The translations under genes and the position numbers were made by a program. 55,440 nt of DNA from a virus: positions 1 through 55,440 of the IMG/VR virus record IMGVR_UViG_3300013104_000029; one strand, 5' to 3'. Below are positions 5,320-35,943 of the stretch, piece after piece. Position 1 is the first letter of the stretch; the number at the start of each line of letters is the position of its first letter. The notes below the pieces were generated by a model, which was not told where the DNA came from, made no database searches, and worked only from the letters and a program-made list of their open reading frames with translations.

Positions 5320-5562
5320 ATGACCAAGCCGACCCGCACCGCCGAGCAGCTGCAGGCCCTGCTGCTTGAGCGCATAGAGGCCATTCCCGACCTGCGCGGC
5401 CAGGTAACCGACGTGCACCGCGCCGGCGTCGTTGGAACGGGCCTCAGCGGTGACGACGGGCCCAGCTGGACGGTGCCCGTGCGCACTGACCGCGGCACGC
5501 ACCGCGCCGACATCGCTCGCATCATCCGCACGCTGCAGGGGCAGTTCGACCTTGAGGATTGA
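5320..5562 (+). CDS. Small protein of unknown function, opposite strand
   Basis: 80 residues (MTKPTRTAEQLQALLLERI...). N-terminal and C-terminal helices flank a polar middle (GTGLSGDDGPSWTVPVR). It starts 9 bases after the previous stop and ends 2 bases before the convergent stop of the cytosine methyltransferase gene, with no visible terminator between them. Confidence 0.6.
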   Translation: MTKPTRTAEQLQALLLERIEAIPDLRGQVTDVHRAGVVGTGLSGDDGPSWTVPVRTDRGTHRADIARIIRTLQGQFDLED

Positions 5563-5564
5563 GG

Positions 5565-8054
5565 TCACGCTGCGGCCCTCCCATAGATCTGCGCCTCGTG
5601 CGCAAAGTTGGCTCGCACGAGCGCCTCGGCCTGCGCTGGAGCAACGCTGTTGCCGCACATGCGCACCTGGGCCGTCGCGCTCAGCTTGATGCGCGGCACC
5701 GCCAGCGGGTCGGCCGCCTGCACTCCGCCGGCGAACAGCAGCGCCGGATCTGGAATCTCGTCGATGACGTAGTCGGCGGGGAAGCTCTGCGCGAGGAACA
5801 GCTCGGGCGCCTTCAGCATCCGCAGCGTGATGTCCACCAGCACCCACCACTGGCCGTCGTGCTGCATCAGCACCAGCTCTGCCAGTTCCGGGAACTGTTC
5901 GGGCAGATGCTCGTGCAGCAGGGCCGCGCACAGCCGCGCGCGCTCGCGCAGTTCGGGCGCCAAGCAGTCGGCCGGCACTTGCTCGACTTCCACCAGTCCC
6001 ATGCGGCCCTTCGTCGGCAGCGTGTGCATAGGCTCGGCCAGGCCCTGCCACTGGCCGCCGCTGCTGTAGTACTTCACGCAGTAGGCGGTGATCAGGCGCT
6101 GGTTGCTGCCTGCGGAGGTGATGGTGGACATAGGCGCATCGGCGGCGCGGCCGTCGCCTTCGTAGAAGCCGCCGTTGGCCTGCTCGATGCACGCGGCCAC
6201 CAGCGCCTGCTCGCCGCGGTGCGCGCCGGTGATGGTGCGCAGCGGCTCCGCAGGGTCGTTGCCCGCGCGCTCGCCGTGGTGTGTGAGGTGCGTGAGGTGA
6301 ATGGCCGCCACGGCGCTGGTGGCGCCGCTGGCCGTCACGGTGTTGAGCGGCTGCTCGACGCTCCGCACGCCGTGGCTGAAGCGCTTCGTGCCATCCTTGC
6401 CCTCGCCGTGGCCCGCGTCCACCAGGTGCGCGGCGACGAGGCCCAGCGGCACACTGCCGCCCGGGCGCTTGATGAAGCTGTTCGCGGTGACGGTGTGCAG
6501 CGGCTCCTGAATGTCGTGGCCCACGCTGTTGGCGCGGAACTTTGTGATGAAAGCGCCTTCGACCACCGCATGCTTCACGCCGCCGGCGACCACGGTGCCG
6601 AGCGGGCGCGTGATGTCGAGCGCGCGCGGCTCCTGCCCAACGCGCTCGCCGTACCCGGTCTGAATCAGCGTGGCGCCCGCCAGCGCGTGATGCGTGCCGC
6701 TGGCCGAGACCGTGGAGAGCGGCGCGGCCACATCGTCGCCCTGCAGGTGGCTTTCCTCGGTGCCGCGCAGCGGGGCGATCACGGGCGCGACGACGGCATG
6801 GTGGCCGCCGGTGGTGACCGTGGAAAGCGGTGCCGAAGCTGGTGCGCCGGAGTGGCCGGTGGTGTTCGTCATCACCATCGGCCTCAGCTGCGGAGTCACC
6901 ACGGAGAAGTGGCCGCCCTTCACCTGAGCGCAGATCGTCCGCAGCGGCTCGTCGGCAGCCATCGTGCGTTGGTTGCTGGCGTTCGCGTGCTCGTTGACGA
7001 ATGGAGCCAGCACCGGCCCGACCGCGGCGAACCCGTTGGACGAGGTGACGGTGCGCAGCGGCTGATCGGCGCCCCAGGCGTTCGGGCCGCGGCCGGTGGT
7101 CTGCCCGTTCGCTGTGTTCGCGACGAACGGCGCCAGCACAGGTTGCGCTACGCACGAGTCAGCCTTCGAGGTGATGGTTTGCAACGGCGCGCCGACAGAG
7201 CGCGACGGCGACTGACCCATGCGGCCGCCCACGCCCACGATGAAGGGCTTCGGGCTGGCCAGGACGTGCCGCCACAGGCCCTTCGCCACGCGGCGCATGG
7301 TGTTGGCCGCCAGCGGGCGCTCGCGGCCGAACACGCTGCGCGCGGGCAGGCTGAAGTCGATGCACTCGGCGGCAGAGCGCCAGGGCAGCAGTTTGCCCGC
7401 CAGCACTGCTGCGCTGGTCGGATCGCCGTGCGTGGCATCGGGCCAGACGATGGGCAGGCCGTCGCGGCGCGCCACGAGGAACAGGCGCTTGCGGATCGTC
7501 GGCGCGCCCTGGTCGCACGCGCGCAGCTCGCGCCACTCGACGTTGTAGCCGTGGCCGCGCAGCTGGCGCACGAAGCTCTCGAACGTCTTGCCCTTGCGCG
7601 CGGGGTCCGGCCGGGCCATGCCGTCGGCGCCCACCAGCAGCGGGCCCCAGGTGGTGAATTCCTCGACGTTTTCCAGCATCAGCACGCGCGGCTTTGTCAG
7701 CGCGACCCAGCGCATGCCCACCCAGGCCAGGCCGCGGATGTGCTTCGCCACCGGCGTGCCGCCCTTGGCCTTGCTGAAGTGCTTGCAGTCGGGCGAGAGC
7801 CAGACCAGCGCCACCGGCTGATTGCGCGTGACCTTGATCGGGTCCACCTCCCACACGCTCTCCAGCAGGTGCTGGGTCAGCGGGTGGTTCATGGCGTGCA
7901 TCGCCAGCGCCTCGGGGTCGTGGTTGATGGCAATGTCCACCGGACGGCCAAAGGCGGCCTCCAGGCCCGTCGACGTGCCTCCGCCGCCGGCGAAGCTGTC
8001 GATGATCAGCTCGTGCCCGAGGTCGAGCGTCAGGGTGAAGGCGTCCCGCTTCAT
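5565..8054 (-). CDS. C5-cytosine DNA methyltransferase with an eleven-unit repeat insertion
   Basis: 829 residues, about twice the usual length. C5-methyltransferase motifs are present: motif I (DSFAGGGGTSTGLE, ~19-32), motif IV with the catalytic cysteine C90 (SPDCKHFS), motif VI (ENVEEF, ~128-133), motif VIII (IRKRLFLVARR), motif IX-like (KAPELFLAQSFPADY, ~748-762) and motif X (CGNSVAPAQAEALV). Between VIII and IX, residues ~290-690 are a chain of units each opening P-L/M-x-T-V/I (units start at 290, 332, 370, 409, 445, 484, 518, 569, 604, 641, 675). This fills the place of the target-recognition domain. Probable role: methylating phage DNA against host restriction. Motif IV reads SPDC rather than the usual PPC. 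Confidence 0.9.
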   Translation of the reverse strand: MKRDAFTLTLDLGHELIIDSFAGGGGTSTGLEAAFGRPVDIAINHDPEALAMHAMNHPLTQHLLESVWEVDPIKVTRNQPVALVWLSPDCKHFSKAKGGTPVAKHIRGLAWVGMRWVALTKPRVLMLENVEEFTTWGPLLVGADGMARPDPARKGKTFESFVRQLRGHGYNVEWRELRACDQGAPTIRKRLFLVARRDGLPIVWPDATHGDPTSAAVLAGKLLPWRSAAECIDFSLPARSVFGRERPLAANTMRRVAKGLWRHVLASPKPFIVGVGGRMGQSPSRSVGAPLQTITSKADSCVAQPVLAPFVANTANGQTTGRGPNAWGADQPLRTVTSSNGFAAVGPVLAPFVNEHANASNQRTMAADEPLRTICAQVKGGHFSVVTPQLRPMVMTNTTGHSGAPASAPLSTVTTGGHHAVVAPVIAPLRGTEESHLQGDDVAAPLSTVSASGTHHALAGATLIQTGYGERVGQEPRALDITRPLGTVVAGGVKHAVVEGAFITKFRANSVGHDIQEPLHTVTANSFIKRPGGSVPLGLVAAHLVDAGHGEGKDGTKRFSHGVRSVEQPLNTVTASGATSAVAAIHLTHLTHHGERAGNDPAEPLRTITGAHRGEQALVAACIEQANGGFYEGDGRAADAPMSTITSAGSNQRLITAYCVKYYSSGGQWQGLAEPMHTLPTKGRMGLVEVEQVPADCLAPELRERARLCAALLHEHLPEQFPELAELVLMQHDGQWWVLVDITLRMLKAPELFLAQSFPADYVIDEIPDPALLFAGGVQAADPLAVPRIKLSATAQVRMCGNSVAPAQAEALVRANFAHEAQIYGRAAA

Positions 8055-26127: not shown

Positions 26128-26399
26128 ATTGCATCAAGGGCGATCTCGCCATCACGAAGGGCGCGCCGATGGACAACGACCTGTTGGTCGATGTTCTCGA
26201 AACGCGCGAAGTGCACGCTGTCTACGGACCGATGTGGCTCGTGCGATCGCTGGGTTCGCCGTTCCACATCGACCCTGGTGTGCGCGACGCCTTCGCAATT
26301 TGGCCGGACTGCATGTTGCGGCCTATTCGCCACCCCGGCGACGACGCCGTAGATGAGACCTTGCTGATGTTCCGCATCCCGGAGTTCGACACGGTATGA
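26124..26399 (+). CDS. Small protein of unknown function
   Basis: 91 residues (MNCIKGDLAITKGAPMDND ... MFRIPEFDTV). The opening resembles short phage proteins with an SH3-like beta barrel (GDLAI, VVxVLETREV), but I cannot assign a family. Overlaps both neighbours. Confidence 0.6.
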   Translation: MNCIKGDLAITKGAPMDNDLLVDVLETREVHAVYGPMWLVRSLGSPFHIDPGVRDAFAIWPDCMLRPIRHPGDDAVDETLLMFRIPEFDTV

Positions 26400-26647
26400 G
26401 CGCCGGCCTCACGCTCAAACAGGCCGAAGTGCTCGCCTTCATGCGCGAGTTCTTCGAAGCCAACGACCAACTGCCGCCGGCCAGTGTTCTGCGCGTCCGC
26501 TTCGGCTGGGCTAGCGAGAACTCGGCCGCCACCTACCTGATCACGCTGGCGAAGAAGGGCTACATCGAGCACAACGCCGTCGGCAAGTACCGTTTCACGA
26601 GGAACACAGCGTGCGCAAGCAATGCCGCCGCAAGCACTACGCCCTGA
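26396..26647 (+). CDS. LexA-type winged-helix DNA-binding protein
   Basis: 83 residues. LTLKQAEVLAFMREFFEAN, LPPASVLRVRFGWASENSA and ATYLITLAKKGYIE match the LexA N-terminal winged helix, without a peptidase domain. It may act as a regulator in the nin region. It overlaps the following gene by 37 bp. Confidence 0.7.
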   Translation: MSAGLTLKQAEVLAFMREFFEANDQLPPASVLRVRFGWASENSAATYLITLAKKGYIEHNAVGKYRFTRNTACASNAAASTTP

Positions 26648-27093: not shown

Positions 27094-27843
27094 ATGACCA
27101 CAGAGAGCAACGCCCCCACCATCGAAGAGCGCTACAGCAGCGCCACCAACGCCAGCAACCTGAAGGTCGAGCGCGACCACCTCCGCCGCAATGTGGCCGA
27201 CATCCTGATCGCGGCCGGCTGGAGCCGGCATGGATTCGGCACTTCGTTGATGCGCCTGCAGAGCGAGTGGGACGGCAGCGCCAAGCCGCGCCCGCTGTCG
27301 GCCGCCGCTATCCGTGTGCTGGCTGGCACCTTCGAAAAGGAGCGGGGCCCAGACGGCAAGGTGCAGGTCGAAGCGCTCGGCCCCGAAGCCGCGGCCAAGC
27401 GACGCGAGGGCCGCCCTGGTGGCTACGAGCGCGTGACGCCGCCGGAGGCCGCACGGCGCCAGGCTCACGAATGGCACATGCACGACCTCGGTCTGCTGTT
27501 CCAGAAGCTGAAGACTCTCCCGGAAGTGCGCGACATGCTCATGTCCTGGGGTTCGTGCCAGGGCATCGAAAGCGCCGGCGTTAAGGCAGCCAGCGTGATC
27601 GCATGGTGGCTGAACCACACCTGCCCAATGTGCAACGGTGGCGGCTACGAGCTCGTGCTGGGAACGAACCGGCAGTCGAATCGGCTTTGCACGCACTGCA
27701 AGGGGTCGAAGCGGGTGAAGCTGCCCTACGGAATGGACGGATCGGCGATGGTCGGTGAGATCGAACGCTCGCTGCACCAGGCCACGTGCAGCATGGGGGC
27801 GGCCACGTCGAATCGTTCGCGCCCGGCTAGGATGGAGCCATGA
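27094..27843 (+). CDS. Candidate late antiterminator (Q-like) with zinc finger
   Basis: 249 residues. CPMCNGGGYELVL and, 21 residues after that first cysteine, CTHCKGSKRVKL form a DnaJ-like CxxCxG zinc finger; Q antiterminators carry similar CxxC-G pairs. The N-terminal part is helical, with EWHMHDLGLLFQKLK. Its place at the end of the early operon, about 1 kb before the late promoter and tR'-like terminator, fits Q. Full-length similarity to a Q family cannot be shown here, so the role is an inference from position and finger. Confidence 0.45.
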   Translation: MTTESNAPTIEERYSSATNASNLKVERDHLRRNVADILIAAGWSRHGFGTSLMRLQSEWDGSAKPRPLSAAAIRVLAGTFEKERGPDGKVQVEALGPEAAAKRREGRPGGYERVTPPEAARRQAHEWHMHDLGLLFQKLKTLPEVRDMLMSWGSCQGIESAGVKAASVIAWWLNHTCPMCNGGGYELVLGTNRQSNRLCTHCKGSKRVKLPYGMDGSAMVGEIERSLHQATCSMGAATSNRSRPARMEP

Positions 27844-28085
27844 CAGCAGAACGCTCAGAGCCGAAGCTCCAGAACACTGCACGGATCGGCCGCTTTTATT
27901 GCCTCACTTGCGGATGGCCGGTCGTGACGGCTTGCTGCAACGATGCGATGGGGGTGCTTCATCCGGACTCTGACTGGTGGGCCTACTGTTCAAACCAGGG
28001 ATGTTTGCGCCACCCGGGAACAGAGATGGGTCAGTCCGCCGACACAAGTTGGATGGAAAGCATCCCGGAGGCCTTGCAAGTATGA
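27840..28085 (+). CDS. Small cysteine-rich protein
   Basis: 81 residues. YCLTCGWP, CCND and CSNQGCLRHPG give two to three cysteine pairs, a probable zinc-binding module. It overlaps both neighbours by 4 bases. Function unknown. Confidence 0.6.
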   Translation: MTAERSEPKLQNTARIGRFYCLTCGWPVVTACCNDAMGVLHPDSDWWAYCSNQGCLRHPGTEMGQSADTSWMESIPEALQV

Positions 28086-28435
28086 AAACCTCTGAACTCA
28101 CCGGCGCGCAACTCGACTACTGCGTTGTGCGCACGCTGATGGAACCGTTCAAGGGCCGCGCGCTGAACGACGAAACCAAGGCGGACATAGTCGAAGCCTT
28201 TGGGCTGGGTGCTGATGTGCCATTTCGGCCGTCGACCAATTGGGCGCATGGCGGCCCGATCATTGAGCGCGAAGGCATCAGCCTCATGCAATGGGAAGTG
28301 CCCAACGACGATGGCACGCTCTGGACCGCGAGGAACCTTACCGCCACGGTTCACCAATCTGGGCCCACCGCTCTCTTCGCCGCCATGCGCGCCTACGTCG
28401 CCTCGAAGTTCGGGGAAGAGGTGCCGGATGAGTAG
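28082..28435 (+). CDS. ninX: NinX-like (DUF2591) protein
   Basis: 117 residues: MKTSELTGAQLDYCVVRTL at the start, and NWAHGGPIIEREGISL in the middle followed by ARNLTATVHQSGPTALFAAM, match the phage NinX/DUF2591 family. Its role is not established. Overlaps the previous gene by 4 bases and the next by 8. Confidence 0.85.
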   Translation: MKTSELTGAQLDYCVVRTLMEPFKGRALNDETKADIVEAFGLGADVPFRPSTNWAHGGPIIEREGISLMQWEVPNDDGTLWTARNLTATVHQSGPTALFAAMRAYVASKFGEEVPDE

Positions 28436-28856
28436 CAGCATGGAAATCGCTGACGCACGCCTCTATGCCGATGGCATGCGCCAGCAGATCAAGCGCTTCG
28501 CCACGCTGACCATTCAGTTGGAAATCGTTGATGACGTTCGGCAATGGTGCCTTGAAAATGAGACTGCGGGATGCATCGGGAATCCGGTCGGGATCGCCAT
28601 CGGCTGTACCGGCGGCTATCTTGATGGCCTCATTCTGGTACGGCAAAAAATCGATGCATCCCTCGTGAGGGGGGTCACCTCGCGGATCATGATTCCCTCG
28701 GCGCAATCTCTCCTGGCGACGCCTCAGGCGTGGCTGGACTTCTTGGTCCTGCACGAACTCGCGCACCTGGAGAACAAGTGGGGTCAAGAGCGAGAAGACG
28801 ACTGCGACAGCTGGGCCATGGAGCGATTTCTGGCCGGTCGAAAGCAAAACGACTGA
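28428..28856 (+). CDS. HExxH metalloprotein, ImmA/IrrE-like candidate
   Basis: 142 residues. H109-E-L-A-H113 followed by an acidic stretch (EREDDCDSWAMERF) has the layout of zinc metallopeptidases, where the second element (E..A..FA) supplies the third ligand. ImmA-type phage proteases cleave repressors of mobile elements. It is the last gene of the right early operon, immediately before the late promoter. GAAGAGG upstream supports ATG 28428; ATG 28440 is possible. Assignment rests on the motif and its surroundings. Confidence 0.6.
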   Translation: MSSSMEIADARLYADGMRQQIKRFATLTIQLEIVDDVRQWCLENETAGCIGNPVGIAIGCTGGYLDGLILVRQKIDASLVRGVTSRIMIPSAQSLLATPQAWLDFLVLHELAHLENKWGQEREDDCDSWAMERFLAGRKQND

Positions 28857-28869
28857 ACTCCGGCGCTGC

Positions 28870-28897
28870 TTGACGCGGGCAAACTCCTACATACAAT
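28870..28897 (+). promoter_or_regulatory. Late promoter (PR'-like)
   Basis: TTGACG (28870-28875), a 16-bp spacer, TACAAT (28892-28897). The predicted transcript begins near 28904, inside the 5' arm of the leader RNA, and is followed by a terminator 150 bp downstream. It is the only strong promoter seen between early and late genes. Confidence 0.75.
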
Positions 28898-28902
28898 CGC
28901 CG

Positions 28903-29055
28903 CCCCATCGAGAACGGACCGTCCTGCTGAGGCCGTCGCCCCTCGTACAACGGCACCAGCCTACATAGACCATCACGCTTGAAACACAGCGCGTTTGCCC
29001 TCGATGGGGAAGGTGCCTCCAGAATTCCCAAGCCGCCCACCGAGGCGGCTTTTTC
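28903..29055 (+). ncRNA. Late leader RNA ending at a terminator (6S/tR'-like)
   Basis: From the predicted start to the terminator is ~150 nt with no gene. CCCCATCGAG (28903-28912) is perfectly complementary to CTCGATGGGG (29000-29009), closing a ~107-nt domain at its very 5' end. Without antitermination this would be a short stable RNA, as lambda 6S is from pR'. Inner structure includes a small ACGG/CCGT hairpin at 28914-28922. Fold and abundance are predictions. Confidence 0.6.
29031..29055 (+). terminator. Intrinsic terminator of the late leader (tR'-like)
   Basis: GCCGCC (29032-29037), a 6-base loop, GGCGGC (29044-29049), then TTTTT. It precedes all late genes, so their expression from the PR'-like promoter requires read-through. 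Confidence 0.88.
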
Positions 29056-29304
29056 GTATCCGAAGCCCGTGGAAACCGTTCCCAGGCATCGAGAGCCGGC
29101 TACTCCACCGCTGGGGTGGCACAGCTTGGGTGTGGCGAACCCTTAACGGCGCAAGTCAAGCCTTGACCAAGACCGCCTCAGATCGCTTCGTGCATCGGGC
29201 CTAACTCGGGCGTCATGCCGCCGGATCGCGTAACCGGCACCCTTTTTTCCCGTCATGGCAAGGGCCCCCGCCGGTAGCCGCGGCATCGACACCTGAGGTA
29301 TCCC
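29056..29304. other. Untranslated gap between leader terminator and first late gene
   Basis: About 250 bases without a convincing ORF. A weak second terminator is possible: GCCGG (29220-29224) and CCGGC (29234-29238), then T6 at 29243-29248. No tRNA or convincing promoter was found. Together with 28857-29055 it makes a 448-bp regulatory gap. Confidence 0.5.
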
Positions 29305-29589
29305 ATGCTCACCACCCGATCCCGCTTCCTCACCTTGGCCTTTGCTGCCGCCGCCCTCGTGGCCGGCAGCGTCACCGGCGCGTTCGAACGCGTGGCGACA
29401 GTCTGTACCACCGCCTACCGCTTCGCGTGTGACTTCGTGGCCAGCGTGCCCGCCGCGTTCGAAGTGCCGCGCCTGGCCCTGCTGTCGCGCCCGGTCGAAC
29501 TCGTGCAGGCCTGCGCCTATGCCCTGGGCCGGGCCAAGCGCGAGCGCCCGCACGTGCGCAGCCAGTGGCGCATGTGCCCGTCAATCTGA
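29305..29589 (+). CDS. First late gene: small protein with N-terminal membrane segment
   Basis: 94 residues. A basic start and a hydrophobic stretch (FLTLAFAAAALVAGSVTGAF, ~8-27) give a membrane anchor or signal sequence; the C-terminus is basic. TGAGGT lies upstream. Function unknown. Confidence 0.5.
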   Translation: MLTTRSRFLTLAFAAAALVAGSVTGAFERVATVCTTAYRFACDFVASVPAAFEVPRLALLSRPVELVQACAYALGRAKRERPHVRSQWRMCPSI

Positions 29590-29594
29590 AGAAG

Positions 29595-29615
29595 TTTCGA
29601 AATTTCGAAATTTCG
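29595..29615. repeat. Tandem TTTCGAAA palindromes
   Basis: Two full copies of TTTCGAAA and a third partial (TTTCG) follow one another with an 8-bp period. Each full unit is a perfect palindrome. The block is A+T-rich in a G+C-rich region and lies directly after a stop codon; a weak hairpin with a U-run follows at 29626-29648. A protein-binding site is possible. Confidence 0.55.
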
Positions 29616-29699
29616 CAATCTCAGGAACGCCCCACCCGGAGCGTTTTTGCATTGGGCCGCGAGCCGGCCCAGCGCAAAGACTTCCAACAGGAGAACGCC

Positions 29700-29948
29700 A
29701 TGTCCCTCGTGACCGAAATCGAATCGCTGTTCCAGGACCTGCGCACGAAGGTGGGCGGCTTCACGTCCGACGCAGAGCTGCACTTCACCAACTTCCTGCA
29801 CCTGGCCCGCTCGGAAGAAGCAGCTGCCGAGGCGCGTGGCGAGCCTGTGGCGTCCGCGCCGGCACCTGCTGCAGCTCCTGCATCGGCACCCGTCGCGCCC
29901 GTACCAGAAGCATCGCCCGAAGCCGAATCGGACACCTCCGCCACCTGA
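29700..29948 (+). CDS. Small protein with Ala/Pro-rich tail
   Basis: 82 residues. The first ~45 are a helix-rich acidic domain (MSLVTEIESLFQDLRTKV...), the rest a disordered Ala/Pro/Glu tail. AGGAG lies 8 bases upstream of ATG 29700; the frame is open upstream but the SD supports this start. Function unknown. Confidence 0.6.
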   Translation: MSLVTEIESLFQDLRTKVGGFTSDAELHFTNFLHLARSEEAAAEARGEPVASAPAPAAAPASAPVAPVPEASPEAESDTSAT

Positions 29949-30055
29949 CCCCAGTTCCAGAGCGCACCCCCGCGCTGCCGCCATTCCCTCCCGGCGGTTC
30001 TGCGCGTTGCTCTAACCCCAGCGGTGCGGTGGGTTGAAACCGCCCGCCCCGTGGC

Positions 30056-30910: not shown

Positions 30911-31066
30911 CCCGTCCTGACCAGCCTCGACGCCCGATCCAGCCGGCATGCACCACCATGGGGCATCCGGGAGGGTGTTGCGAGATTGCAACGGGTCCTT
31001 CCGGGGTCAGGCTGCATCGCGGGCATTGCGCGCCGCGTTTCTCGGCCGGCGCTGAGTTCAAAACAA

Positions 31067-31347
31067 TGTCCGCACAGGATGTCCGCACCTATGGCTGAAG
31101 CAGTGACGGGCCGCGAGTTCGCGCGGCTGGAGGGTTGCGACGAGAAGCAGGTGCGGCGGGCGTTGGCGCGTGGGCTGCTGGTGGCCGATGCCGAGGGAAA
31201 GCTCGATCCCGCGCAGGTTGGCAGCGGGTGGCGCAAGCCGCGTGCGGACAGCAAGGAAGCGCCGCCGAAAGCACCTGCAGCGCCGCGCGCGAAGAAGGCT
31301 GCGGACACCGGTGCGGACAAGGCGAGGGCTCCGAAGAATGTCCGCAC
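31067..31347. repeat. Repeated 9-mer TGTCCGCAC: candidate terminase (cos/pac) recognition sites
   Basis: TGTCCGCAC occurs on the plus strand at 31067, 31080 and 31339, and on the minus strand (GTGCGGACA) at 31242 and 31311, with an 8/9 copy at 31299. I noticed no other copy in the window. The cluster spans the start and first third of the small-terminase gene, where lambda-like phages place terminase-binding R sites. The first pair is spaced 13 bp. Confidence 0.55.
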
Positions 31348-31705
31348 GCCGGCGAAGGCCGAGCCCGAAGCGGTCGATGGCGTGCCGGTGGTGCAGAGCG
31401 CCGACGGCGCCAGCCTCAAGCGGGCAGTGGCTCACAAGGAAGACTACGCCGGCCGGCTGAAGGAACTGGAGTACCGCCAGCGCGCCGGCGAGGTCATCAG
31501 CCTTGAGCTGGCCAAGCAGGTGCTGTTCACGGAGTTCAGGGCCGCGCGCGATGCGTGGCTGAACTGGCCCACGCGGTACGCCGCGCTGATCGCGGCCGAG
31601 CTTGGCATCGAAGAAGCAGACCGGCTTGCGGAGACCCTGACCACGTATGTTCACAAGCAACTTGCCTCCCTGGGAGAGCCCAGCGGACAGTTCCGCAAAG
31701 GCTGA
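31079..31705 (+). CDS. terS: Terminase small subunit
   Basis: 208 residues. A winged-helix-like N-terminus (VTGREFARLEGCDEKQVRRA, ~10-30) should bind the packaging site. An Ala/Lys/Pro linker follows, then a helical C-terminus (EYRQRAGEVISLELAKQVLF ... HKQLASLG) as in Nu1-like small subunits. MAEAV at 31091 is an alternative start. Its C-terminus overlaps the TerL start by 59 bp. Confidence 0.8.
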   Translation: MSAPMAEAVTGREFARLEGCDEKQVRRALARGLLVADAEGKLDPAQVGSGWRKPRADSKEAPPKAPAAPRAKKAADTGADKARAPKNVRTPAKAEPEAVDGVPVVQSADGASLKRAVAHKEDYAGRLKELEYRQRAGEVISLELAKQVLFTEFRAARDAWLNWPTRYAALIAAELGIEEADRLAETLTTYVHKQLASLGEPSGQFRKG

Positions 31706-33776
31706 GCTTCTCAGGAAGGAAGTTGCCGCCGGCTGGTCCACGCCGCCGCGGATGTCGGTGCCGGCCTGGGCCGACGAGTTCCGCAAGCTGGCCAAGGGCT
31801 TCGGCGCCGTGTCTGGCGACTGGGAAACCTCGACCGTGGAGGTGGCGCGCGGCCCGATGCTGGCGGTCACCGAGCCGGGCGTTCGGACGATCACGGCGAT
31901 GTGCGCCACGCAGTTGCTCAAGACCGAGCTGCTGCTCAACATCTTCGGGTATCACGTCCACCTGGACCCGTGCCCGATCCTGATCCTCCAGCCGAAGGCA
32001 GAGTCGGCCGAGCAGTTCTCGAAGGAGCGCCTGCAGCCGATGGTGGCCGCGACGCCGGTGCTCGACGAGCGCGTGGGCGGTTCCGAGGAGACGCTGACCT
32101 ACAAGCCCTTCCCTGGCGGCTTCGCCGGCCTGGTGGGCGCGGGCAGTCCCGACAACCTGGCGCGCCGCCCGATCCGGGTGGTGCTTGCCGACGAGATCAA
32201 CAAGTACCGGCCCACGAAGGAGGGCGACTCCCTGGTGCTGGTGGGCGAGCGCACTGCGACGTTCGCGCTGAATTCGCTGGAGGTGCGGGCGTGCAGCCCG
32301 ACCATCGAAGACGAGTGCGCCATCTCGGAGAGCTACGCGAACTCCGACCAGCGCCGCGCGACCATCGCGTGCCCGCACTGCGGCCACCGCATGTTCCCGA
32401 TGTTCTTCCAGCACGTGCAGTGGCAGAAGGACGACAAGGGCAACCACCTGCACAAGACCGCGCGGATCTACTGCGAGGCCTGCGGCAACGCCTGGTCGGA
32501 AGGTGAGCGGCAGAAGGCGCTGGCCACCACGCGCTGGCACCAGACGAAGCCGTTCGAATGCTGCGACGTCCGCCACGTTCCGCTGGATGCATATGCCGCG
32601 CTCTGGAAGGAACTGGGCGACAGCGAGGCGGCCGTGGCCCAGGTCTGGGACTGGTGGGAAGACGACGAAGAAGGCCGCTACGCGGTCTACCGCGCGCGAT
32701 GCTCGCAGTGTGGCAGCTGGCCCCTCGACAACTCGCACGCGGGCTTTCAGGCCGGCAAACTGTTCTCGCCATCGCAGAAGGACCGGCCGAGCGAGCAGGC
32801 TCGGAAATGGCTCGAAGCGAAGGGCGATGCGGACCGCGAGCTGTCGTGGTGGAACACCCAGCAGGGCCTGCCGCACCGGCCGCTGGCCAGCAAGGCGCTG
32901 GCGGTCGACACGCTGCTGTCGCGGCGCGAGGTGTTCGACGCCGAGGTGCCGCACGGCGTGGCGCTGCTCACGCTCGGCATCGACGTGCAGGACTTCCGGA
33001 TCGAACTCGAGCTGGTCGGATGGGGCAAGGATGAGGAGAGCTGGTCGATCGACTACCACGTCATCGAAGGAGAGTTCGGCGACCCGGCGACGCAAGCGCA
33101 GCTCGATGCCTACATGAAGCGGCTCTGGCGCCGGGGCGACGGCCGGACGTTCGAGGTAATGGCCGCGTGCATCGACTCTGGCGGCCACCACACCCAGGCG
33201 GTCTACAACTTCGCGAAGGCGCGGCTCGGTCGGCGCGTGTGGGCCATCAAGGGCGCTTCGGAGCGCGATGGTCAGCGCAACCCCGTGTGGCCCACGAAGA
33301 AACCGAACCGGCGCACGAAGGCCAGTTTCCGGCCGGTGGTCATCGGCGGCAATGCCGCGCGCGACATCATCCGCACCCGCCTGCTGCTGGGCGTGCCCAC
33401 CCCGGGCAAGCCGGCTCCGGGCTACATGCACTTCCCCGCGGACCGCGACATCGGCTACTTCCAGCAGCTGACCGCCGACCGCCTGACGTTGAAAGAGATC
33501 GGGCGTCGCAAGGTGCGCATCTGGGAAACACCGAACGGCAAGGCCAACGAGGCTGCCGACTGCCGCGTCTACGCCTACGCCGCGCTGTGCGGCCTGCTGC
33601 ACTTCGGACTGCAGCTCAACCGCCGCGCCGAACTCGTGCTGCCCGCACCGCCGGCCGCCGACCAGAACGCCATCGCGCTGCCGCAAGAAGACGGCGCCCT
33701 GATACCCGACGGTGTGCCGACCGCTGTTGCGCCGCGCCCCGCCGCCAAGAAGAGCCTGATCGCCAGGCTCGCATGA
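31647..33776 (+). CDS. terL: Terminase large subunit, lambda GpA type
   Basis: 709 residues. The ATPase half has a P-loop-like segment (ATQLLKTELLLN, ~87-98) and Walker B VVLADEIN (~182). Two CxxC pairs (CPHCGHRM, CEACGNAW) lie at ~240-280, and a third at ~355. The nuclease half carries LGIDVQD (~445) and CIDSGGHH (~509), metal-binding acids typical of GpA proteins. It packages DNA into the prohead and cuts at cos. Confidence 0.93.
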   Translation: MFTSNLPPWESPADSSAKAELLRKEVAAGWSTPPRMSVPAWADEFRKLAKGFGAVSGDWETSTVEVARGPMLAVTEPGVRTITAMCATQLLKTELLLNIFGYHVHLDPCPILILQPKAESAEQFSKERLQPMVAATPVLDERVGGSEETLTYKPFPGGFAGLVGAGSPDNLARRPIRVVLADEINKYRPTKEGDSLVLVGERTATFALNSLEVRACSPTIEDECAISESYANSDQRRATIACPHCGHRMFPMFFQHVQWQKDDKGNHLHKTARIYCEACGNAWSEGERQKALATTRWHQTKPFECCDVRHVPLDAYAALWKELGDSEAAVAQVWDWWEDDEEGRYAVYRARCSQCGSWPLDNSHAGFQAGKLFSPSQKDRPSEQARKWLEAKGDADRELSWWNTQQGLPHRPLASKALAVDTLLSRREVFDAEVPHGVALLTLGIDVQDFRIELELVGWGKDEESWSIDYHVIEGEFGDPATQAQLDAYMKRLWRRGDGRTFEVMAACIDSGGHHTQAVYNFAKARLGRRVWAIKGASERDGQRNPVWPTKKPNRRTKASFRPVVIGGNAARDIIRTRLLLGVPTPGKPAPGYMHFPADRDIGYFQQLTADRLTLKEIGRRKVRIWETPNGKANEAADCRVYAYAALCGLLHFGLQLNRRAELVLPAPPAADQNAIALPQEDGALIPDGVPTAVAPRPAAKKSLIARLA

Positions 33777-33786
33777 AGGATTCACC

Positions 33787-33990
33787 ATGCTGATTTCCCG
33801 CAAGGTCGGACACGTCACGTTCCACCACGACGACGAGTTCAAAGGCGAGGTGACCATCGAGAAGGGTGACACGCGCCTGTCGGTGTCGATGGAGGCGCTG
33901 CGCGCCTTCGTTGCCGAGAGCGTGCGCCACGAGCTCGCCGCCCATGTGGCCAAGATGAAGCCGGCAGACCTGCTGCGCCGGATCGCCTGA
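33787..33990 (+). CDS. Small structural-region protein
   Basis: 67 residues (MLISRKVGHVTFHHDDEF...): beta strands then a helix ending in KPADLLRRIA. It lies between TerL and the gpW-like gene, a position where many lambda-head phages carry a short unknown protein. Confidence 0.6.
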   Translation: MLISRKVGHVTFHHDDEFKGEVTIEKGDTRLSVSMEALRAFVAESVRHELAAHVAKMKPADLLRRIA

Positions 33991-33992
33991 CG

Positions 33993-34259
33993 ATGCGCCG
34001 CACCAGCATCCTCGACGGCATCAGCTTGGCCGACCTGCAGGCGCGCCTCGCCGCTCTGCAGCAGGCCTATCTCGACCTCATGGCAGGCGGGAAAGTCGCG
34101 TCCGCGTCGTACACCCAAGGGGACGGCGCCCGCACGGTGACCTACACCCAGGCGAACATCGCCGACCTCACGCAAGCCATCCTGGCGCTGCAGACCCAGA
34201 TCGACCGGCTGACCGGCCAGTGCATCAATCGCCGCGCGCCGATGCGGCCGGTGTTCTGA
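33993..34259 (+). CDS. gpW-like head-completion protein
   Basis: 88 residues. ISLADLQARLAALQQAYLDL, then a hairpin (KVASASYTQ...TVTYTQ) and ANIADLTQAILALQTQID, match the gpW fold that plugs the portal and joins it to the tail. It ends one base before the portal gene. Confidence 0.85.
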   Translation: MRRTSILDGISLADLQARLAALQQAYLDLMAGGKVASASYTQGDGARTVTYTQANIADLTQAILALQTQIDRLTGQCINRRAPMRPVF

Positions 34260-34260
34260 G

Positions 34261-35943
34261 ATGAGCGCTCCTTTTCAGATCCTCGACGCGAGCGGCAAGC
34301 CGATGAGCATGCCCACGCCCGCGCGAGCCCGCGCCAGCGGCGCGCCGGGCTACCTCAACCTGCCGAGCGGTTCGAACTTCGCATACGAAGCCTCGAACAT
34401 CGCGAGCCAGGAGATGGGCAACTGGCAGCCGTGGATCCGCTCGCCCGACTCGGAGATCAACCCGTTCCGCGACCGCATGGTGGCGCGCACGCGCGACCAG
34501 GTACGCAACGACGGATGGTCGACCGGCGGCGTCACGCGGATCCTCGACAACGTCGTCGGCACGCACCTGCGGCTGTCGGCGTCGCCGGACTACCGGGCGC
34601 TCAAGGCGCGCTTCGGCAAGGCCTTCGACGCCACCTGGGCGATGGAATTCCAGCGGGCGGCCGAGGCGCTGTGGCGCGGCTACTCGGAGAGCCTGGGCCG
34701 GTGGAACGACGTGGAGCGCGCTCTCACGACCGGCCAGCAGTTCCGGCTGGCCATGCGCCACAAGCTGATCGACGGCGAGGCCTTGGCGCTCGCCTACTGG
34801 ATGCCGGAGCGCGTGGGCGCCGGCGGTGCCGACTATGCGACCTGTATCCGCCTGATCGACCCCGACCGGCTCAGCAACCCGTTCCAGGGCCCCGACACCA
34901 AGAACATGCGCGGCGGGATCGAGATCGACGAGGAAACCGGCGAACGCCTGGCCGCGCACATCCGCCGCGCGCAGCAAAACGACTGGTATCTCTCGGTCGA
35001 GGCAAACACCTGGGAGCGCGTGCCTTTCGAGGATGACGACGGCTTCACCCGGGTGATCCACGACTTTGACCGGGACCGCGCCGGCCAGCACCGCGGCATC
35101 AGCGCGTTCAGTCCGATCCTGTCGCACGCCCGCATGCTGGCACGCTACTACGGGCTCGAACTGCAGCAGGCGTCGCTCGCCGCAGCGCTGGGCACCTATG
35201 TGACCAGCCCTTACGACCCTGCGCTCGTGCAGGAGGCCCTGGGCGCCGACGACGCCGCGGCGCAGGAACTCAATGCCTACCAGCAGATGCGTGCCGAGTG
35301 GTCGCAGGAGCGGCCGGCCTACTTCAACGGCGTGAAGGTGCCGACGCTGGCGCCCGGCGAAAGCATCGAATCGGTCGCGAGCCCGCACCCGCACACCGGC
35401 TTCGCCGACTTCGCCCACGAGATGCTGGGCCTGTACTCGGCGGCTACTGGCCTGTCGCGCGAGCAGATCACCCAGGACTGGTCGCGGACCAACTACAGCA
35501 GCGCGCGCGCCGCGCTGATGGAGAGCTGGAAGACGCTGATGCGCCGGCGCGGCGAGTTCACCACCAACTTCGCCACGCCGAACTACGCGCTGTGGCTGCG
35601 CGAGGCGATGGAGAATGGCGAACTGCCGCTGCCCGCCGGCGCGCCGAGCTTCGTCGAGGCGGCCACCGCCTATTCGCGCTGCCGCTGGCTCGGCCCGGCA
35701 CGTGGCTGGATCGACCCCGTCAAGGAACCGGCCGGCAGCGTGCTGCGCATGGAAGCGGGCCTAGCCACGCTGGAGAGCGAAGGCGCAGAGCAGGGCGTCG
35801 ACTGGGAGGAGGTCGCCGACCAGCGCCAGATCGAACAGAAGGCCTACGAAGAGCGCGGCCTGCCGCCTCCGAAGTGGGCAGCCATCCAGGGCACCGGCGA
35901 CTTCTTCAAAGACGACAGCGAGTCGAAGGCACAGCAACCATGA
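34261..35943 (+). CDS. Portal protein, lambda gpB type
   Basis: 560 residues. Recognisable lambda-portal segments: RMVARTRDQVRNDGW, GHISAFSPILSH-like (RGISAFSPILSHARM), and SPHPHTGFADFAHEMLG ... LSREQITQDWSRTNYSSARA. It forms the dodecameric channel for DNA entry and the terminase docking site. The acidic, disordered C-terminus is normal. Confidence 0.93.
   Translation: MSAPFQILDASGKPMSMPTPARARASGAPGYLNLPSGSNFAYEASNIASQEMGNWQPWIRSPDSEINPFRDRMVARTRDQVRNDGWSTGGVTRILDNVVGTHLRLSASPDYRALKARFGKAFDATWAMEFQRAAEALWRGYSESLGRWNDVERALTTGQQFRLAMRHKLIDGEALALAYWMPERVGAGGADYATCIRLIDPDRLSNPFQGPDTKNMRGGIEIDEETGERLAAHIRRAQQNDWYLSVEANTWERVPFEDDDGFTRVIHDFDRDRAGQHRGISAFSPILSHARMLARYYGLELQQASLAAALGTYVTSPYDPALVQEALGADDAAAQELNAYQQMRAEWSQERPAYFNGVKVPTLAPGESIESVASPHPHTGFADFAHEMLGLYSAATGLSREQITQDWSRTNYSSARAALMESWKTLMRRRGEFTTNFATPNYALWLREAMENGELPLPAGAPSFVEAATAYSRCRWLGPARGWIDPVKEPAGSVLRMEAGLATLESEGAEQGVDWEEVADQRQIEQKAYEERGLPPPKWAAIQGTGDFFKDDSESKAQQP

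Follow-up and report, generated by a model that had tools for sequence, protein, structure and literature searches.

A conserved structured RNA in the late leader of a lambda-type phage locus with a Q-like antiterminator gene

The virus record analysed here, a window of 55,440 bp, contains a short late leader that is best read as heading a late operon of the lambda type, under Q control, and as carrying a conserved structured RNA absent from Rfam, with a preferred role in cis (rough probability 0.66). The locus varies the known lambda late leader by this conserved RNA element. The phylogenetically supported fold of the leader is a predicted 37-nt stem-loop at 28909-28945, not the perfect 10-bp closing helix, or clamp, that drew attention to the region in the initial annotation. 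The features of the locus, all on the plus strand, are as follows.

27094-27840, plus strand: Q-like antiterminator gene, 249 aa with two CxxC pairs (predicted fold; weak PHROG Q-like matches in homologues)
27840-28085, plus strand: gene for a small phage zinc-binding protein, between Q and the late promoter (Pfam PF23895, E 3.6e-15)
27977-28435, plus strand: NinX-like gene (Pfam PF10765, E 4.8e-18)
28440-28856, plus strand: short gene with a HELAH motif, between the NinX-like gene and the late promoter; possible metallopeptidase (open frame; sub-threshold YgjP-like match)
28870-28897, plus strand: late promoter, TTGACG-16-TACAAT (10/12 match to sigma-70; same promoter in relatives)
28888-29026, plus strand: conserved leader unit, the promoter end plus RNA, described by covariance model R1
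28903-28912, plus strand: 5' arm of the closing helix, CCCCATCGAG, perfectly complementary to CTCGATGGGG (no compensatory change)
28909-28945, plus strand: 5' stem-loop, CGAG/CTCG, GG/CC and CGTCCT/AGGCCG with loop GCTG (RNAalifold, covariation)
28971-28997, plus strand: second hairpin, ACGC...GCGT region (RNAalifold consensus of class A)
29000-29009, plus strand: 3' arm of the closing helix, CTCGATGGGG, also part of the 3' motif CGATGGGGAAGGTGCC
29030-29055, plus strand: intrinsic, tR'-like terminator, AAGCCGCC-CACCGA-GGCGGCTT plus T tail (sequence pattern)
30986-35943, plus strand: late genes for the small and large terminase subunits, head-tail adaptor and portal (PHROG matches)

The gene at 27094-27840 is identified chiefly through the predicted structure of its product. 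A Foldseek search of 350,542 PDB chains with the AlphaFold model of the 249-aa protein (pLDDT 75.9) ranks lambda Q in its loading complex (7ubm_Q) best, at a probability of 0.96 against 0.12 for the next match; because the E value is 0.33 and the TM-score is low (0.28/0.39), the call rests on this probability rank, the CxxC layout and the position of the gene. All Pfam models fall below cut-off for this protein and its HMM matches are weak, and a tblastn search with it in phage records gave no match. Its Q-like fold and its place before the late promoter lead us to read it, with good but not full certainty, as a Q-like antiterminator. Replication genes and a NinB-like gene lie 5' of it in the window, and packaging and head genes recognized by PHROG matches follow the leader on the same strand. 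A protein with a LexA-type DNA-binding domain (PF01726), possibly a phage regulator, is encoded upstream of Q at 26396-26647.

The earlier comparison with a pR'/6S/tR' unit is borne out by this order of Q-like gene, sigma-70 promoter, short RNA, terminator and late genes. The promoter is the sole sigma-70-like site in 28000-30000, and its spacer, AAACTCCTACA, is largely conserved in class A relatives (defined below) and is a candidate Q-binding element between -35 and -10. In the initial transcribed region of class A, inspection reveals no conserved hexamer that would correspond to a -10-like pause element. Transcription would begin near 28902-28907, the sequence alone not fixing the exact base: CCCC occupies the usual start position, and G28902 and A28907 are the purines closest to it. 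Were A28907 the first base, the four C's would be lost and the closing helix would shrink to 6 bp. At the other end, an 8-bp stem at 29030-29051 followed by a T tail agrees with the proposal that a terminator ends the RNA at about 150 nt.

About 25 phage or prophage loci, those with a name belonging to Burkholderiales, have a similar leader downstream of a Q homologue, and these leaders can be divided into three classes. Class A comprises the window, the phage contig L013, the prophages L021, L047 and L048, the prophage remnant L049 and the phage contig L092; class B is L016; class C contains 19 loci, including Acidovorax and a Burkholderiaceae genome bin. In all of these loci apart from L092, which is noted here as a class A leader only, the leader was located downstream of a Q homologue. 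L021, L047, L048 and L049 belong to Variovorax paradoxus and its genus. Further loci were found by searching with the Q-like protein, and nearly all have a promoter downstream of Q, followed by a similarly sized leader. L013 was matched by the arm pattern. Model R1, built from the window, L013, L021, L047 and L048, also finds L049 (8e-24), L092 (2e-42) and L016 (3e-6). Scanning with the pattern AACGGCANNNGCCTACA lacked specificity, L092 being the only real leader among 96 matches rescored with R1 (L058-L153). L014, which is unrelated and matched the helix pattern by chance, was discarded.

The conserved element in class A consists of the promoter and about 130 nt, 81-95% identical in four relatives, and it is better conserved than the adjacent Q gene: leader identity to the window is 95% in L013, 84% in L021 and 81% in L048, against 72%, 63% and 62%, respectively, for the nucleotide sequence of Q. 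In L013 a 146-nt island of 95% identity stands out from other shared segments at 70-89%. Within the leader, long stretches such as CGTACAACGGCACCAGCCTACAT are nearly invariant. The classes are linked by a 3' motif, CGATGGGGAAGGTGCC in the window and CGACGGAGAAGCTCGCC, CGATAGAGAAGCTCGCC and AGATGGTGAAGCTCGCC in others, and L054 has a 5' stem-loop of class A type together with a 3' end of class C type. The relatives share no conserved reading frame here, which makes a coding role for the leader improbable.

Searches against Rfam 15, including bacterial 6S RNA, gave no match up to E 10 for window positions 28400-29700, and none for the leaders proper of L013 and L016-L020, sub-threshold matches elsewhere being at chance level. 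With the leader as query, nucleotide searches of phage and plasmid records returned no real match, and no earlier description of such a leader was found in the literature searched, which included few subscription journals.

The surroundings of the leader differ between loci. In L013, L021 and L048 no terminator directly follows the class A leader, and reverse-strand frames or tRNA genes are found there. Minus-strand open frames in L013 (about 6297-6761) and L021 (about 5554-6327) end exactly at the leader 3' end, as if genes had been inserted precisely at this point. Many relatives carry tRNA genes (Met, Trp, Ser, Gly) beyond the leader, at distances of a few hundred to roughly 1,100 bases (L013 6861-6937; L016 6071-6146; L021 6529-6604; L047 1939-2015; L048 1873-1971 and 2041-2117; also L026, L031-L033 and L035); the window has none. 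In L049 a protein-kinase-like frame on the plus strand (437-1486) converges on the 3' end of the degraded leader. The first 18 bases past the -10 element in class C (e.g. L017 5664-5681) form an inverted repeat, TGCGACTGCCGGTTCGCA, at the transcript start that is nearly invariant even though the spacer of the promoter varies; it may fold as a hairpin or serve as a site for a protein.

The clamp exists as described: CCCCATCGAG and CTCGATGGGG pair perfectly, with 87 nt between the arms and a span of 107 nt. The 153-nt RNA 28903-29055 has a predicted energy of -56.2 kcal/mol, compared with -43.2 +/- 3.8 kcal/mol in shuffles (z -3.4), and its predicted fold includes the closing helix. Perfect 10-bp inverted repeats with loops of 20-150 nt are common in this GC-rich window (40 observed, 24.7 expected from first-order Markov sequences), so that the clamp is notable only for its place at the promoter and transcript start; from that frequency, the chance that such a repeat begins no more than about 5 nt from a given site is estimated at roughly 0.5%. 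The initial annotation saw in it a designed-looking closed fold and proposed covariation in related phages as a check. The complete helix is confined to the window and its closest relative, L013, whose arms are identical and therefore yield no covariation. In L021, L047 and L048 it is partly broken, the 5' strand being almost fixed and the changes on the 3' strand uncompensated. Across the five class A sequences 84% of cells are paired, about the level of shuffles, and no pair is changed on both sides; L049 was left out of this comparison, its leader 3' end running into an unrelated gene. These sequences give the idea of a designed or selected closed fold no support; the fold that covaries is a competing one. 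The clamp is best read as a lineage-specific, stable alternative.

That competing fold is the 5' stem-loop. In five class A sequences 93% of its cells are paired and 5 of 12 pairs are changed on both sides, with no shuffle in 500 as good in pairing or covariation score; adding L049, L016 and L054 raises the number of doubly changed pairs to 7 of 12, again with 0 of 500 shuffles as good, in sets that are small (five to eight sequences) and related and for structures chosen on the same alignments used for testing, which favours them. Because the shuffles leave this relatedness in, the count of changed pairs is a stronger statement than the shuffle count. Sliding the partners of the stem-loop destroys the signal. 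The second hairpin shows little covariation because it is nearly invariant. The class C leader has a fold of its own, with both partners changed in 10 of its 28 pairs (0 of 500 shuffles). A candidate helix common to the classes, C[CU]GUC/GAU[GA]G, was dropped as costing more than 20 kcal/mol in the window and L013.

Stem-loop and clamp are mutually exclusive because both need CGAG at 28909-28912. Predicted energies favour the stem-loop in L021, L047 and L048; for the full-length RNA of the window and L013 they favour the clamp by about 12-13 kcal/mol. Predictions for the nascent window RNA place the stem-loop as the best fold at 44-50 nt; other folds follow at lengths of 60 to 100 nt, and the clamp is best once 105 nt is reached.

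According to the preferred reading, the promoter at 28870-28897 would start an RNA near 28902-28907, most copies of which would stop at 29030-29055 when Q is absent, so that a lysogen would constitutively make a short transcript of about 150 nt. Loading of the Q-like protein encoded at 27094-27840 would then allow polymerase to read through into the terminase and portal genes. The selected element of the leader would be the 37-nt 5' stem-loop, followed by a 3' part more conserved in sequence. Once about 45 nt are out, this stem-loop would form and help the early elongation complex in cis; it may time a promoter-proximal pause or Q loading, or contact polymerase as HK022 putRNA does. The clamp would be an alternative fold, stable once about 105 nt have been made and perfect only in this lineage. 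A cis role is favoured by the retention of the leader in L013, L021 and L048, where no terminator directly follows. The earlier suggestion that the RNA has a function of its own thus gains support from conservation and covariation, but the closing helix as its selected fold does not.

The main rival to a role in cis is that the released leader acts in trans, by analogy with StxS, as a small RNA constant in the lysogen, processed, and pairing with host or phage mRNAs. Its genomic place is that of StxS, a terminator stands right behind the RNA in the window, L016, L047, L054 and most of class C, and nearly invariant stretches such as the one quoted above would suit a pairing RNA. The three relatives without a terminator directly behind the same RNA speak against it, however, as does the fact that each of classes A, B and C has invariant stretches of its own, and we consider a trans role possible but on the whole unlikely. 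Conservation might instead act mostly on DNA, through the promoter, a Q-binding element and the initial transcribed region, the RNA folds being incidental. The class A spacer and first 20 transcribed bases are indeed nearly invariant, and in the published mechanism Q engages promoter DNA between -35 and -10 together with a -10-like pause element (PMC6606751). The conserved stretch extends about 120 nt beyond the start, however, and compensatory changes in stems are not expected from constraint on a DNA site, so this explanation appears quite improbable.

Equally doubtful is that the clamp itself is functional, sealing a closed RNA at its ends, with the RNA acting on its own. Its strong predicted stability would fit, as would predicted 5'-3' closures with different sequences, of 5 bp in L016 and of 3 bp in class C (columns 2-4/108-110, paired throughout), but the lack of compensatory change, pairing no better than in shuffles, a 3' arm that decays opposite a nearly fixed 5' arm, the abundance of such repeats in the window and covariation for the competing stem-loop all argue against it. 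A bolder scheme, which we hold to be a long shot, gives both folds a part: Q-like proteins of Burkholderiales phages would work with a leader that switches from the early 5' stem-loop to the closed clamp after about 105 nt, and late-gene antitermination would rely on an RNA element alongside the DNA site.

Control of late genes by Q is described as DNA-directed: at a sigma-dependent pause, Q binds the DNA of the promoter. A leader better conserved than Q and bearing a covarying stem-loop suggests either an RNA part in this control in these phages or an overlooked family of phage small RNAs.

Among known systems, the closest in layout is lambda pR'-6S RNA-tR', which has in common with the window an upstream Q or Q-like gene, a strong promoter, a short terminated leader and late genes downstream. 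The window differs in its conserved, covarying 5' stem-loop, in a leader more conserved than Q, in the three genes between Q and the promoter, and in that no clear -10-like pause element was found. StxS, which derives from the pR'-tR' region of Stx phages, is processed by RNase E and is bound by Hfq (review PMC7873438), is likewise a small RNA from a late-promoter leader, but some relatives here have no terminator. IsrK of the Gifsy-1 prophage is a small RNA functionally linked to the antiterminator gene AntQ (PMC12197685). The common ground is a prophage small RNA linked to an antiterminator; the IsrK mechanism involves a messenger isoform, and the window leader is without any Rfam match. In phage HK022, putRNA modifies RNA polymerase by itself, through two specific stem-loops. 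The putL site lies just downstream of its promoter (PMC9378689). The likeness to the window is one of setting: in both, a phage operon transcript has a structured RNA close to its 5' end in a context of antitermination. The put sites work at early promoters with no phage protein involved, whereas the late leader of the window is accompanied by a Q-like protein.
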